From positions 1 through 26,033 of the forward strand of contig JAFQUA010000071.1 of assembly GCA_017408725.1 (NCBI GenBank): a DNA stretch of 26,033 nucleotides, read 5' to 3'. The notes under the pieces are model-generated. The model was not told the DNA's origin, made no database searches, and was given only the letters and a program-made list of their open reading frames with translations. The DNA comes from Oscillospiraceae bacterium. GTDB taxonomy: Bacteria; Bacillota_A; Clostridia; Oscillospirales; Oscillospiraceae. Positions within the stretch are counted from its first letter, which is position 1, and each line of letters starts with the position of its first letter. This document shows, piece after piece, positions 18,208 through 26,033 of the stretch. Both the position numbers and the translations under genes were made by a program.

Positions 18208-18464
18208 AAAAAACCCTGAGGTCATACGACCCCAGGGACGAATTTCCATTCGCGGTACCACCCTGATTATTTCCCCGCGGGGAAATCACTCACAGACTTC
18301 CAGCAAAGTCCTGCTCTGTAACGGGAGCGCCCGGATCCCATTACTGGCAAAACGCATTCACAGGACCGACTCAGGAACCAGATCGCCCAACCCTCTTGCA
18401 CCGGCTCACACCAACCGCCGGCTCTCTGGAGCAGTCCGGAGAGGACAAGATTTCCTTCAATGTC
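18208..18464 (-). promoter_or_regulatory. T-box leader, probable Leu specifier (CTG)
   Basis: A tRNA-sensing leader on the minus strand. The antiterminator motif CAGGGTGGTACCGCG (complement of 18251-18265) has a TGGT bulge suited to an A discriminator. The terminator stem is 18214-18237 with a T6 run at 18213-18208. Stem I has the AGAGAG bulge and the GGTTGGTG apical loop closed by GCCGGC/GCCGG (18401-18422). Its base shows a K-turn (GACATTGA opposite GAGTC) and a perfect 5-bp helix AGGAA/TTCCT. By comparison with the glyQ T-box, the specifier is the codon ending one base before that helix. That gives CTG (18381-18379), Leu. Uncharged tRNA-Leu would allow read-through into the LeuA-like operon. 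Confidence 0.9.
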
Positions 18465-18484
18465 TTTTACAAATTATATGACAC

Positions 18485-18513
18485 ATTAAATCATATATTT
18501 ACCCGGCTGTCAA
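18485..18513 (-). promoter_or_regulatory. Promoter of the LeuA-like / ligase-fusion operon
   Basis: On the minus strand, TTGACA (18513-18508) and TTTAAT (18490-18485) are 17 bp apart, with transcription expected near 18478, just ahead of T-box stem I. It is divergent from the promoter at 18572-18600. Confidence 0.8.
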
Positions 18514-18571
18514 CTGTAAGATTGAACAATTTTCGAAAACAAAGCCCTGTTTGTTTTGGAGAGAAAAACAT

Positions 18572-18600
18572 TTGACTTTTCTGTGCGTACATGCTATAGT
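18572..18600 (+). promoter_or_regulatory. Promoter of the first HTH-cupin-ligase gene
   Basis: TTGACT (18572-18577) and TATAGT (18595-18600) are 17 bp apart, directly upstream of the T-box leader. Confidence 0.85.
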
Positions 18601-18619
18601 GTCTTTAATATCGAAAAAA

Positions 18620-18868
18620 GGCTTTGACGAAGACGGTCAGACAGAAAAATGCCCAGAGAGCCGGTGGTTGGTGCGAACCGGAGATTTTGAGTCTAAGGAC
18701 CCATCCCTTCCGAGCCGGAGGACCGAAAAGCGCTATGAGTAGGCTTCTCCCGTTTGCCCGCGTTAAGGGATAGGACTTGCTGGAGTCTGAAGTGGCGGCG
18801 AAAGCCGCAATTTGAGTGGTACCGCGGGTAAAATTACTCGTCTCAAGAATTTTCTTGAGGCGTTTTTT
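18620..18868 (+). promoter_or_regulatory. T-box leader, probable Ile specifier (ATC)
   Basis: Stem I starts GGCTTTGA (K-turn) with the lower helix CGAAG paired to CTTCC (18707-18711, 4 bp plus one mismatch), the AGAGAG bulge, and the apical loop GGTTGGTG closed by CCGGT/ACCGG (18661-18681). The antiterminator is GAGTGGTACCGCGGG near 18814-18828. The terminator is CGTCTCAAGAA/TTCTTGAGGCG (18839-18862) with T6. The codon one base before the lower helix is ATC (18703-18705), Ile. The base after it is C, not the usual purine, so GAC or CCA in the same loop remain alternatives. Confidence 0.9.
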
Positions 18869-18893
18869 GTTTTTTAGAAAGGAAGGATAAGCT

Positions 18894-23905: not shown

Positions 23906-23916
23906 GAGGAATTTTT

Positions 23917-24615
23917 ATGGAACACAAACGATTGACTCTGTTTGCCGGACATTACGGCAGCGGAAAAACCAATATCGCCGTTAATTACGCTCTGCACTTG
24001 GCAGCGGAGGGGAAGGAAGTCTGCATTGCGGACTTAGATATCGTCAATCCTTACTTCCGCACCAAGGATAGCGCCAAGGTGCTGGAAAGTGCCGGCGTGG
24101 AGCTGATCTCCCCCCAGTTTGCCAATACCAATGTGGACTTGCCGGCACTGCCGGCGGAAGCCTACCGGCTGGTGCAGGATAAAAGTGTCTACGGCATCAT
24201 GGATATCGGCGGCGATGACCGGGGCGCTTATGCCCTCGGCCGCTATACTCCTTTTATTAAGGAAGAAAACGACTACCGCATGGCCTTCGTTGCCAATCCC
24301 TACCGGCCTTTGACTCGCACTCCCGAGGAAGCGCTGGAAGTGATGCGGGAGATCGAAACCGCCTGCTCGCTAAACTTCACCTGCATCATTAACAATGCAA
24401 ACCTCGGAACGGAAACCACCCCTGAGGACGTGCTGGAGACCAAGGAATATATGGAAAAGCTCAGCGCTCTTTCCGGTCTTCCTCTGTGGATAACGGCGGC
24501 GGAGGAAAAAGTGGCGGCGCAGCTTGTGGGAAAGGTAGAAAATCTGCTTCCCATGCGGCTGCAGGAAAAATATTTTGATTTACCGGAACAAAGGGCCCGC
24601 CCTTTGTTCGGATAA
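23917..24615 (+). CDS. P-loop ATPase of the ParA/MinD-like (SIMIBI) type, unknown role, linked to VOR
   Basis: A 232-residue cytoplasmic nucleotide-binding protein. Walker A reads FAGHYGSGKTN near the N terminus, followed by a CIADLDIVNPYFRT segment as in ParA/MinD/CooC-like ATPases, and an IMDIGGDDRG Walker-B-like strand. The deviant lysine of classic MinD (KGGxGKT) is absent. There are no cluster-ligand CxxC motifs. GAGGA lies six bases before the ATG. Its position just ahead of the ferredoxin and oxidoreductase genes suggests help with assembly or metal/cofactor insertion for that complex, as CooC does for CO dehydrogenase, but this is a guess from context. Confidence 0.75.
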   Translation: MEHKRLTLFAGHYGSGKTNIAVNYALHLAAEGKEVCIADLDIVNPYFRTKDSAKVLESAGVELISPQFANTNVDLPALPAEAYRLVQDKSVYGIMDIGGDDRGAYALGRYTPFIKEENDYRMAFVANPYRPLTRTPEEALEVMREIETACSLNFTCIINNANLGTETTPEDVLETKEYMEKLSALSGLPLWITAAEEKVAAQLVGKVENLLPMRLQEKYFDLPEQRARPLFG

Positions 24616-24643
24616 TAGACATCTCATTAAGGAGGAACTCTCT

Positions 24644-24850
24644 ATGGCAAAAGTAACGTTCCTGACGGATCTGTGTAAGGGCTGCGGCCTGTGTGTCAAT
24701 GCCTGCCCCAAAGGGTGTCTGGCTATCGACACCGAGCAGATCAACAAGAAAGGCTATTCCCCCGCTGTGATGAAGGATCAGGATAAGTGCATCGCCTGCG
24801 CATTCTGCGCCACCATGTGCCCTGACTGCATCATCACTGTGGAAAAGTAA
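24644..24850 (+). CDS. 2[4Fe-4S] ferredoxin-type delta subunit of 2-oxoacid:ferredoxin oxidoreductase
   Basis: A 68-residue iron-sulfur protein with two CxxCxxCxxxC motifs (C11/14/17/21 and C49/52/55/59), each followed by a further Cys at 25 and 62. It would carry electrons between the TPP/FeS core of the oxidoreductase and free ferredoxin. The start at 24644 is chosen for AAGGAGGA eight bases upstream; an upstream in-frame ATG at 24575 overlaps the previous gene and lacks a ribosome site. It lies 11 bases before the alpha subunit gene, the usual order for four-subunit VOR/KOR enzymes. Confidence 0.9.
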   Translation: MAKVTFLTDLCKGCGLCVNACPKGCLAIDTEQINKKGYSPAVMKDQDKCIACAFCATMCPDCIITVEK

Positions 24851-24861
24851 GGAGGATCGAA

Positions 24862-25920
24862 ATGGCAGAGAAAGTACTTATGAAGGGCAACGAAGCCATT
24901 GCCGAAGCCGCCATCCGTGCCGGCTGCCGTCACTACTTCGGTTACCCCATCACCCCCCAGACCGAGATCGCTGCCTATATGGCAAAAAAGATGCCCAAGA
25001 TCGGCGGCGTTTTCCTGCAGGCTGAAAGCGAGATCGCTTCTATCAACATGGTCTATGGCGCAGCCGCTGCCGGTATGCGTGTTATGACCTCTTCCAGTAG
25101 CCCCGGAATTTCCCTGAAGGCTGAAGGGCTGAGCTATATCGCCGGTTCCGATGTGCCTGCGCTGGTTGTCAATGTCCAGCGTGGAGGCCCCGGCCTCGGT
25201 GGTATCCAGCCGAGCCAGTCCGACTATTTCCAGGCCACCAAGGGCGGCGGTCACGGCGACTACCGGATGATCGTCCTTGCTCCTGCTTCCGTGCAGGAAA
25301 TGGCCTCCTTGACCATCAAGGGCTTCAATTTGGCTGACAAGTATCTCATGACCTCCATGATCCTCGCTGACGGCACCATCGGTCAGATGATGGAGCCCAT
25401 CTCCTTCGAGGATGCCGAAGTCGAAACCTACGAAAAGCCCTGGGCGCTGACCGGCACCGAGGGTAAGCGCAAGCACAATGTGGTCAATTCTCTGTACCTG
25501 CAGCCCGATAAGCTGGAGCAGAAGAACTTCGAGCGCTACGAGCGCTACAGAACCGTGGAAGAGAACGAGCCCATGTGGGAAGAGTACATGATGGAAGATG
25601 CTGAGTACTGCGTTGTTGCTTTCGGTATCGCTTCCCGTGTTGCCAAGAATGCTGTTGTGGCTGCCAGAGCCGAGGGCATCAAGGTAGGTCTGATCCGTCC
25701 CATCACATTGTGGCCCTTCCCCACCAAGGCCCTGCGTGCCGCTGCAGACAAGGTCAAGAGCTTCATCTCCGTGGAGCTGAACATGGGCCAGATGATCGAG
25801 GATATCCGTCTGGCTACCGAGTGTAAGCGCCCCGTGTCCCTGTGTAACCGCGCCGGCGGCATGATCCCCAGCCCCGATCAGGTGCTGGAGGCCATCCGCA
25901 ATGCCCAGAAAGGAGAGTAA
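24862..25920 (+). CDS. vorB: 2-oxoacid:ferredoxin oxidoreductase alpha subunit, VOR type (3-methyl-2-oxobutanoate dehydrogenase VorB)
   Basis: A 352-residue alpha subunit of a thiamine-diphosphate 2-oxoacid:ferredoxin oxidoreductase, the usual length of VorB. It shows MKGNEAIAEAAIRAGCRHYFGYPITPQTE at the N terminus, the LQAESEIASINMVYGAAAAG segment that contacts TPP, and QRGGPGLGGIQPSQSDYFQA. The enzyme interconverts branched 2-oxoacids plus CoA with acyl-CoA, CO2 and reduced ferredoxin, and can run reductively in anaerobes. VOR rather than KOR is preferred on overall similarity as I recall it; 2-oxoglutarate specificity is not excluded. GGAGG precedes the ATG. The stop is followed within three bases by the next ATG, so the subunits are co-translated. 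Confidence 0.88.
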   Translation: MAEKVLMKGNEAIAEAAIRAGCRHYFGYPITPQTEIAAYMAKKMPKIGGVFLQAESEIASINMVYGAAAAGMRVMTSSSSPGISLKAEGLSYIAGSDVPALVVNVQRGGPGLGGIQPSQSDYFQATKGGGHGDYRMIVLAPASVQEMASLTIKGFNLADKYLMTSMILADGTIGQMMEPISFEDAEVETYEKPWALTGTEGKRKHNVVNSLYLQPDKLEQKNFERYERYRTVEENEPMWEEYMMEDAEYCVVAFGIASRVAKNAVVAARAEGIKVGLIRPITLWPFPTKALRAAADKVKSFISVELNMGQMIEDIRLATECKRPVSLCNRAGGMIPSPDQVLEAIRNAQKGE

Positions 25921-25923
25921 GAT

Positions 25924-26033
25924 ATGGCTGTCGTATTTGAAAAACCCAAAGCTTTGACAGATGCCGTGCTGCATTACTGCCCCGGCTGTCCCCACGGCAT
26001 TATCCACCGCCTGGTTGCCGAAGCCATTGACGA
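25924..26033 (+). CDS. 2-oxoacid:ferredoxin oxidoreductase beta (TPP-binding) subunit, 3' truncated by window edge
   Basis: Only the first 36 codons are visible: MAVVFEKPKALTDAVL then HYCPGCPHGIIHRLV. The CPGCPHG motif with its two cysteines is the N-terminal mark of the TPP-binding beta subunit of VOR/KOR/IOR enzymes. AAAGGAG (overlapping the end of the alpha gene) precedes the ATG at the right distance. A gamma subunit is expected beyond the window. Confidence 0.88.
   Translation, partial: MAVVFEKPKALTDAVLHYCPGCPHGIIHRLVAEAID

Follow-up and report, generated by a model that had tools for sequence, protein, structure and literature searches.

The stretch of DNA analysed here (the window) comprises 26,033 nucleotides from an Oscillospiraceae bacterium (assembly GCA_017408725.1, contig JAFQUA010000071.1). 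It carries three AMP-forming acid-CoA ligase genes in units that stand behind T-box leaders with Leu, Ile and Val specifiers, next to genes of a 2-oxoacid:ferredoxin oxidoreductase of the VOR type. T-boxes turn genes on when the cognate tRNA is uncharged. Based on the sequence analysis presented below, we suggest, with a probability of about 0.8, that the T-box-gated ligases and VOR convert isovalerate, 2-methylbutyrate and isobutyrate to Leu, Ile and Val, respectively.

The following course of events is proposed. When one of the charged tRNAs runs short, the uncharged tRNA likely holds the matching leader in the antiterminator form, as can be expected from the T-box family. The ligase is then made and would activate its acid, a prediction drawn from its family, the nearest characterised enzymes and a Gly/Ala position near the presumed acyl pocket. 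VOR, using reduced ferredoxin and CO2, is predicted to yield 2-oxoisocaproate, 2-oxo-3-methylvalerate or 2-oxoisovalerate. The last step, amination of the 2-oxo acid, would be carried out by IlvE.

T-box leaders, ligases and VOR genes of the window

A preliminary description of this DNA had reported three T-boxes reading Leu (CTG), Ile (ATC) and Val (GTC), which was confirmed by the Rfam matches, the position of the specifiers and the terminators (Table 1). In all three leaders, the specifier directly precedes the 3′ strand of the stem I base helix, and an antiterminator motif is followed by an intrinsic terminator made of a hairpin and a U run. Given the RF00230 gathering score of 93, the Leu and Ile leaders lie above it and the Val leader lies below; the latter scores 82.2 bits with our own model R1, of which it is itself a training row. 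The number of promoter-like sites in the region (8) showed no excess over shuffled sequences (7.9).

The Leu unit runs leftward from about position 18470, from its T-box through a LeuA-like gene to the gene of a TIM-barrel/ligase fusion, the two genes sharing 4 bases on the same strand. In the rightward direction, the order is Ile T-box, ligase, Val T-box, ligase, P-loop NTPase, 4Fe-4S subunit, VorB and the start of an open frame. The earlier proposal that each ligase unit stands behind its own T-box was borne out, except that the Leu T-box first serves the LeuA-like gene. The Ile and Val ligases lie inside the stretch described, but the Leu ligase is found to the left of its start (18208). 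The VOR-type genes said to stand beside the ligases are present as the 4Fe-4S subunit and VorB.

The Ile and Val ligases have an N-terminal helix-turn-helix (HTH) and a cupin domain (18894–19500 and 21511–22150), which were absent from the preliminary description. In the Leu-unit ligase, a xylose-isomerase-like TIM barrel (residues 19–232) is fused N-terminally.

Table 1. Leaders, regulatory sites and genes in the window.
Feature	Coordinates	Strand	Basis
T-box leader, specifier CUG (Leu)	18231..18469	-	Rfam RF00230, 113.7 bits; specifier complement 18379-18381
T-box leader, specifier AUC (Ile)	18615..18848	+	RF00230, 96.7 bits; specifier 18703-18705
T-box leader, specifier GUC (Val)	21207..21456	+	RF00230, 75.8 bits, E 1e-16; specifier 21296-21298
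Intrinsic terminator, Leu T-box	18214..18237	-	-19.6 kcal/mol; 0/200 shuffles as stable
Intrinsic terminator, Ile T-box	18839..18862	+	-14.0 kcal/mol; 1/200 shuffles as stable
Intrinsic terminator, Val T-box	21441..21479	+	-22.4 kcal/mol; 0/200 shuffles as stable
Sigma-70-like promoter before Ile T-box	18572..18600	+	Consensus match only, 10/12
Sigma-70-like promoter before Val T-box	21172..21200	+	Consensus match only, 11/12
AP_endonuc_2 TIM barrel + AMP-forming acid-CoA ligase fusion; predicted isovalerate ligase (Leu unit)	14264..16777	-	Pfam
LeuA-like, LeuA_dimer domain	16774..18183	-	Pfam/NCBIfam, under LeuA cut-offs
HTH + cupin + AMP-forming acid-CoA ligase; predicted 2-methylbutyrate ligase (Ile unit)	18894..21167	+	Pfam; MbcS best NCBIfam match
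HTH + cupin + AMP-forming acid-CoA ligase; predicted isobutyrate ligase (Val unit)	21511..23790	+	Pfam; nearest solved chain 3etc
P-loop NTPase (CbiA/ParA-like)	23917..24615	+	Pfam matches under cut-offs
4Fe-4S (ferredoxin-type) subunit, 2-oxoacid oxidoreductase	24644..24850	+	Family matches
VorB-type alpha subunit, 2-oxoacid:ferredoxin oxidoreductase	24862..25920	+	NF005507, 551.7 bits, over the cut-off of 399
Open frame start, probably VOR beta subunit, ends at window edge	25924..26033	+	36 aa without family match

Specifiers across relatives

The relatives were the best 80 loci from a genome scan with the Val ligase, which together with the window gave 81 sequences. All 80 come from metagenome-assembled genomes named Oscillospiraceae, Ruminococcaceae, Clostridiales, Clostridia or Bacillota, many of them from herbivore guts. 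Specifiers were read as the triplet before the base helix at matches of a stem I covariance model, which had been trained on 33 rows from relatives, pre-filtered for the expected amino acid, and three window rows placed by hand. As a result, 170 sites were found in 78 of the 81 sequences, 168 of them before cluster genes. Two weak matches elsewhere (E 0.029, GCC; E 0.078, GTA) were taken as chance.

All 44 specifiers before the LeuA-like gene read Leu (CTG 28, CTC 16), all 58 before the Ile ligase read Ile (ATC), and all 66 before the Val ligase read Val (GTC 23, GTA 43). Where leaders were found, the codons vary only synonymously and the amino acid is constant; the covariance folding and specifier comparison proposed in the preliminary description thus returned no other amino acid. 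Among the 168 agreeing reads, 36 belong to training rows and 132 lie outside the training. The window Val leader and the Ile leader of locus L031 were linked to their genes by position. A specifier reader built on regular expressions was dropped in favour of the covariance model, since it misread or missed rows (the window Leu leader was read as TGC).

In the structure-fitted alignment, 98.3% of cells pair, compared with 22.5–46.6% in slid versions, and nine of the 11 pairs in the helices around the specifier show changes on both sides. A method control on 30 T-box loci from eight genomes gave GTC before valS (5), TAC before tyrS (3), TTC before pheS, ATG before metG and TGG before trpB. The aspS leader in this control reads AAC (Asn), and elsewhere the fit is plainer. 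The control also includes four more leaders (L093, L097, L107, L108), before genes outside these assignments.

A second set was taken from a draw of 147 genomes of the order, in which full-length ligases were defined by a score of at least 1000 bits (a threshold of our own choice, with which 850 bits agrees). From the ligase matches of this draw, 40 upstream stretches (29 genomes), read without an amino-acid filter, and 20 comparison stretches were picked by hand. Some of the 29 genomes may coincide with source genomes of the 80 loci. A leader was present in 39 of the 40 stretches upstream of full-length ligases, which include the HTH-cupin part (27 Ile, 12 Val; the exception is L129), and in 10 of 10 tandem ligase pairs of this set the first leader reads Ile and the second Val. 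Upstream of the chosen ligase homologues without HTH-cupin, leaders detectable by the stem I model were found in 0 of 20 stretches.

Pathway enzymes, ligase specificity and alternative explanations

The window contains the ligases and part of VOR, and the aminotransferase is not visible there. Among the relatives, 51 loci contain VorB and offer at least 3 kb of room. Homologues of VOR beta and gamma were found in every one of these, and an IlvE gene no more than 6 kb away from VorB was found in 34; three IlvE genes exceed family cut-offs. Ligase, VOR and aminotransferase genes therefore occur together in relatives, and this is the gene set of the isoacid reductive carboxylation route. Background on the KOR enzymes is given in an excerpt of PMC11304471.

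The standard branched-chain pathway was searched for in 30 genomes chosen by hand from the source genomes of the 80 loci. IlvB, IlvC, IlvD and LeuB each exceeded their cut-offs in two of the 30, the same two genomes in each case. Among the controls, prephenate dehydratase (PDT) was found in 30, ValS in 25 and trpB in 23 of the same genomes, and IlvB, IlvC and IlvD passed in 14 of 14 reference genomes. Based on these matches, the acetolactate route appears to have been lost in most relatives searched, and the isopropylmalate route has probably been lost as well, the search for the latter covering LeuB and not LeuA, LeuC or LeuD. Since the standard routes appear lost, the cluster is likely the main way in which these relatives make Val, Ile and Leu.

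The order draw points in the same direction. IlvC passes in 69 of the 147 genomes; with kinship ignored, it was found in 6 of 41 genomes with a ligase of at least 1000 bits vs. 63 of 106 others (p 8.5e-7), in 8 of 51 with a ligase of at least 850 bits vs. 61 of 96 others (p 1.7e-8), and in 1 of 14 with a tandem pair vs. 68 of 133 others (p 0.0015). The LeuA-like gene occurs in 30 of the 147 genomes, including all 14 with a tandem pair; IlvC was present in 3 of these 30 vs. 66 of the 117 without it, kinship again being ignored.

It is worth considering whether the cluster degrades branched-chain amino acids, with VOR oxidising the 2-oxo acids and the acyl-CoA being used or released. VOR and IlvE are reversible and are found in amino acid fermenters, in keeping with such a role. 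However, T-boxes activate on uncharged tRNA, the opposite of what breakdown would call for; AMP-forming ligases consume ATP, and the standard synthesis enzymes pass their cut-offs in only two of the 30 genomes. We therefore regard breakdown as very improbable.

The specificity proposed for the ligases is based on their families and nearest characterised enzymes. MbcS (NF047394) is the best NCBIfam match of both the Ile ligase (431.3 bits) and the Val ligase (409.9 bits), both under the cut-off of 850, and the nearest solved structure to the Val ligase is 3ETC (MacsMa; E 7e-182). According to an excerpt of PMC10455477, MacsMa of Methanosarcina acetivorans prefers 2-methylbutyrate; its likeness to the Val ligase covers the ligase part only, not the HTH-cupin. 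MbcS of Staphylococcus aureus takes 2-methylbutyrate and isobutyrate, the acids predicted here for the Ile and Val ligases, and isovalerate poorly (PMC10026030, in excerpt). This substrate range is in line with two paralogues that serve the alpha-branched acids, the Leu unit having a ligase of another family. Unlike MbcS, which feeds fatty acid synthesis in the excerpted text, the Ile and Val ligases carry an added HTH-cupin.

The likeness to MbcS also brings up the possibility that the main task of the ligases is to supply primers for branched-chain membrane fatty acids, the role of MbcS in S. aureus, and that their control by T-boxes is incidental, the fatty acids and amino acids having precursors in common. 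Such a role would agree with the NCBIfam match of both HTH-cupin ligases and with the delivery of the MbcS product to FabH (PMC10026030, same excerpt). It is less easily reconciled with three amino-acid-specific leaders, with the position of the VOR genes, and often of IlvE, close to the ligases, or with the rarity of IlvB, IlvC, IlvD and LeuB; moreover, the MbcS-like homologues without HTH-cupin had no T-box in any of the 20 comparison stretches. In our opinion, fatty acid priming as the main function is improbable, though less so than breakdown.

A comparison of Ile-led and Val-led ligases showed one catalytic-domain position that differs at 95% conservation and seven at 80%. At the GWxKxxWGK position, Gly was found in all 84 Ile-led and Ala in all 77 Val-led ligases, and 3ETC has Gly. 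We take this motif to line the acyl pocket; it is suggestive that the smaller residue (Gly) is found in those ligases for which the larger acid is predicted. The structure predicted for the Val ligase was poor (mean pLDDT 63.2) and was left unused. Taken together, the constant specifiers, the presence of the standard enzymes in only two of 30 genomes, IlvE near VorB and the likeness to MbcS and 3ETC support the earlier suggestion that the ligases activate branched acids and that VOR carboxylates the CoA esters, as far as sequences can indicate it.

The LeuA-like protein, the first gene product of the Leu unit, has a predicted fold like that of LeuA (mean pLDDT 82.8; TM 0.93 to 3ewb by target length) and shares the LeuA_dimer domain with this 2-isopropylmalate synthase. 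However, the RDGEQ motif, which we take to be catalytic, and the HxH motif, presumably metal-binding, were missing in all 163 LeuA-like sequences, as judged for the window protein (P0001) by alignment to 3ewb. Because both motifs are lost, the protein is unlikely to make isopropylmalate; our guess is that it acts as a leucine-sensing partner. Protein searches with P0001 and P0003 gave at least about 8000 candidates each, all of them matching.

Contrary observations and relation to known systems

A number of observations weigh against the proposed conversion of isoacids to Leu, Ile and Val. The first group concerns the leaders. The statement that each branch is controlled by its own tRNA holds in the window and is weaker beyond it: in 15 of the 81 loci, a full Val T-box was not found before the Val ligase. 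In 13 of these (L007, L008, L011, L014, L019, L023–L027, L031, L032 and L074), the Val ligase lies 5–271 bases behind the Ile ligase, and 12 of the 13 have an Ile leader, so that the Ile tRNA would gate both genes. The other two are L047, cut by a contig end, and L035, which has no Val leader. Ile ligases without a leader numbered 11 of 69, of which 10 are interrupted by a contig end; the remaining one is in L074, which shows no leader before the Ile or the Val ligase. Five of 49 LeuA-like genes had no Leu T-box, one of them (L074) being cut by a contig end.

The second group concerns the enzymes. No IlvE was found near VorB in 17 of the 51 loci, and VorB is a subfamily name, the substrates of VOR being predicted. 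The ligase part of the Leu-unit protein best matches a general fatty acid CoA ligase family, under the cut-off, and the Leu branch is the weakest of the three. T-box identity and the Gly/Ala residue each change once on the tree; the match between leader and residue is therefore a single event, not 161.

The third group concerns the standard pathway. The LeuB cut-off was missed by 5 of the 14 reference genomes (9 pass), and leuB-like matches of 260–272 bits occurred in 4 of the 30 genomes. Other matches under the cut-offs were ilvD in G028 (502.5 bits) and ilvB in G014 (362 bits). ValS was under its cut-off in 5 of the 30, so genome incompleteness explains some absences. Genome G012 has the cluster (L026) plus IlvB, IlvC, IlvD and LeuB, though neither a Leu nor a Val leader at that locus. 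In G119, IlvC occurs alongside the tandem pair with both leaders. A second exception is L038, where the Val ligase stands behind a GTA T-box with valS directly after it (9720–14973) and no VOR beside it. The L038 genome likewise keeps IlvB, IlvC, IlvD and LeuB. As a separate observation, L026 and L027 both show the cluster without Leu and Val leaders, in L026 as if the leaders were lost with the standard route retained.

Finally, 43 of the 147 order genomes have neither IlvC nor a full-length ligase. Together with an Opp-like peptide-type ABC transporter gene set with a solute-binding protein, which adjoins the cluster in the window (7871–13845), this could mean that branched-chain amino acids come from peptides and that the ligases act on an unrelated acid. 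Such a function would leave unaccounted for the Ile and Val T-boxes kept on the ligases across the order and the VOR genes, often with IlvE, alongside. We consider it highly unlikely, on a par with breakdown.

Synthesis of amino acids from isoacids by the route proposed here would itself be no novelty. Isoacids are growth factors of rumen bacteria. In rumen cultures, Leu is formed from isovalerate, Ile from 2-methylbutyrate, Val from isobutyrate and Phe from phenylacetate, and isoacids have been known as rumen amino acid precursors since the 1960s (work of Allison, Robinson and others, cited in the excerpted part of PMC7356843). The acids and products are the same and the habitat is related, but that part of the source deals with biochemistry, without genes or tRNA control. 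A T-box before leuA of Geobacter (PMC2494555, in excerpt) is likewise a tRNA-sensing leader on an amino acid supply gene, whereas the window leaders stand before carboxylic acid-CoA ligases. By title and the start of the abstract, no T-boxes on acid-CoA ligases were described among the literature matches listed, a comparison outside which the surveys PMC2271356 and PMC2650889 stand. In the excerpted texts of PMC2494555 and PMC3766115, no such ligases appear among the T-box genes, and the terms 'acyl-CoA' and 'CoA ligase' occur 0 times. The chemistry is thus classical in rumen bacteria, and the genes and tRNA gating look new.

The cluster provides candidate genes for each branch together with the signal that would choose the acid to be used, and a genomic marker for bacteria that may rely on acids made by their neighbours. 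With it, isoacid dependence in herbivore gut communities would become directly testable, and T-box control would be extended to the activation of feedstocks.

In addition, a TTC (Phe) leader was observed before another ligase gene in at least three of the eight genomes searched for T-boxes, where 30 of the matches were examined. Phe-specifier operons at L115, L116 (about 8646–15938) and L117 (about 9239–14604) contain a ligase, IorA, IorB and a PaaK-like ligase, with a sodium symporter in L115 and L116. The Phe run of G016 includes a sodium symporter, IorA and IorB over their cut-offs and a PaaK-like ligase under its cut-off. Similar open frames follow the Phe-led ligase in G003 and G025, where the genes scanned were the symporter of G003 and the PaaK-like one of G025. 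This operon looks like a phenylacetate-to-phenylalanine salvage module, to judge by its predicted genes, even though all 30 genomes have PDT.

A wider proposal, to which we would give slightly less than even odds, is that in gut-dwelling relatives of this bacterium an acid-in, amino-acid-out regulon replaces the acetolactate route. In such a regulon, the uncharged Leu, Ile, Val and Phe tRNAs (the last at another locus, which contains indolepyruvate oxidoreductase genes) would each turn on activation of the matching volatile or aryl acid. The HTH-cupin ligases would also act as regulators, and a LeuA without catalytic activity would serve as leucine sensor.

A palindromic, repeat-like stretch noticed by eye in the window (23800–23915), downstream of the Val ligase gene and ahead of the P-loop NTPase gene, may be an element of the REP/MITE type.

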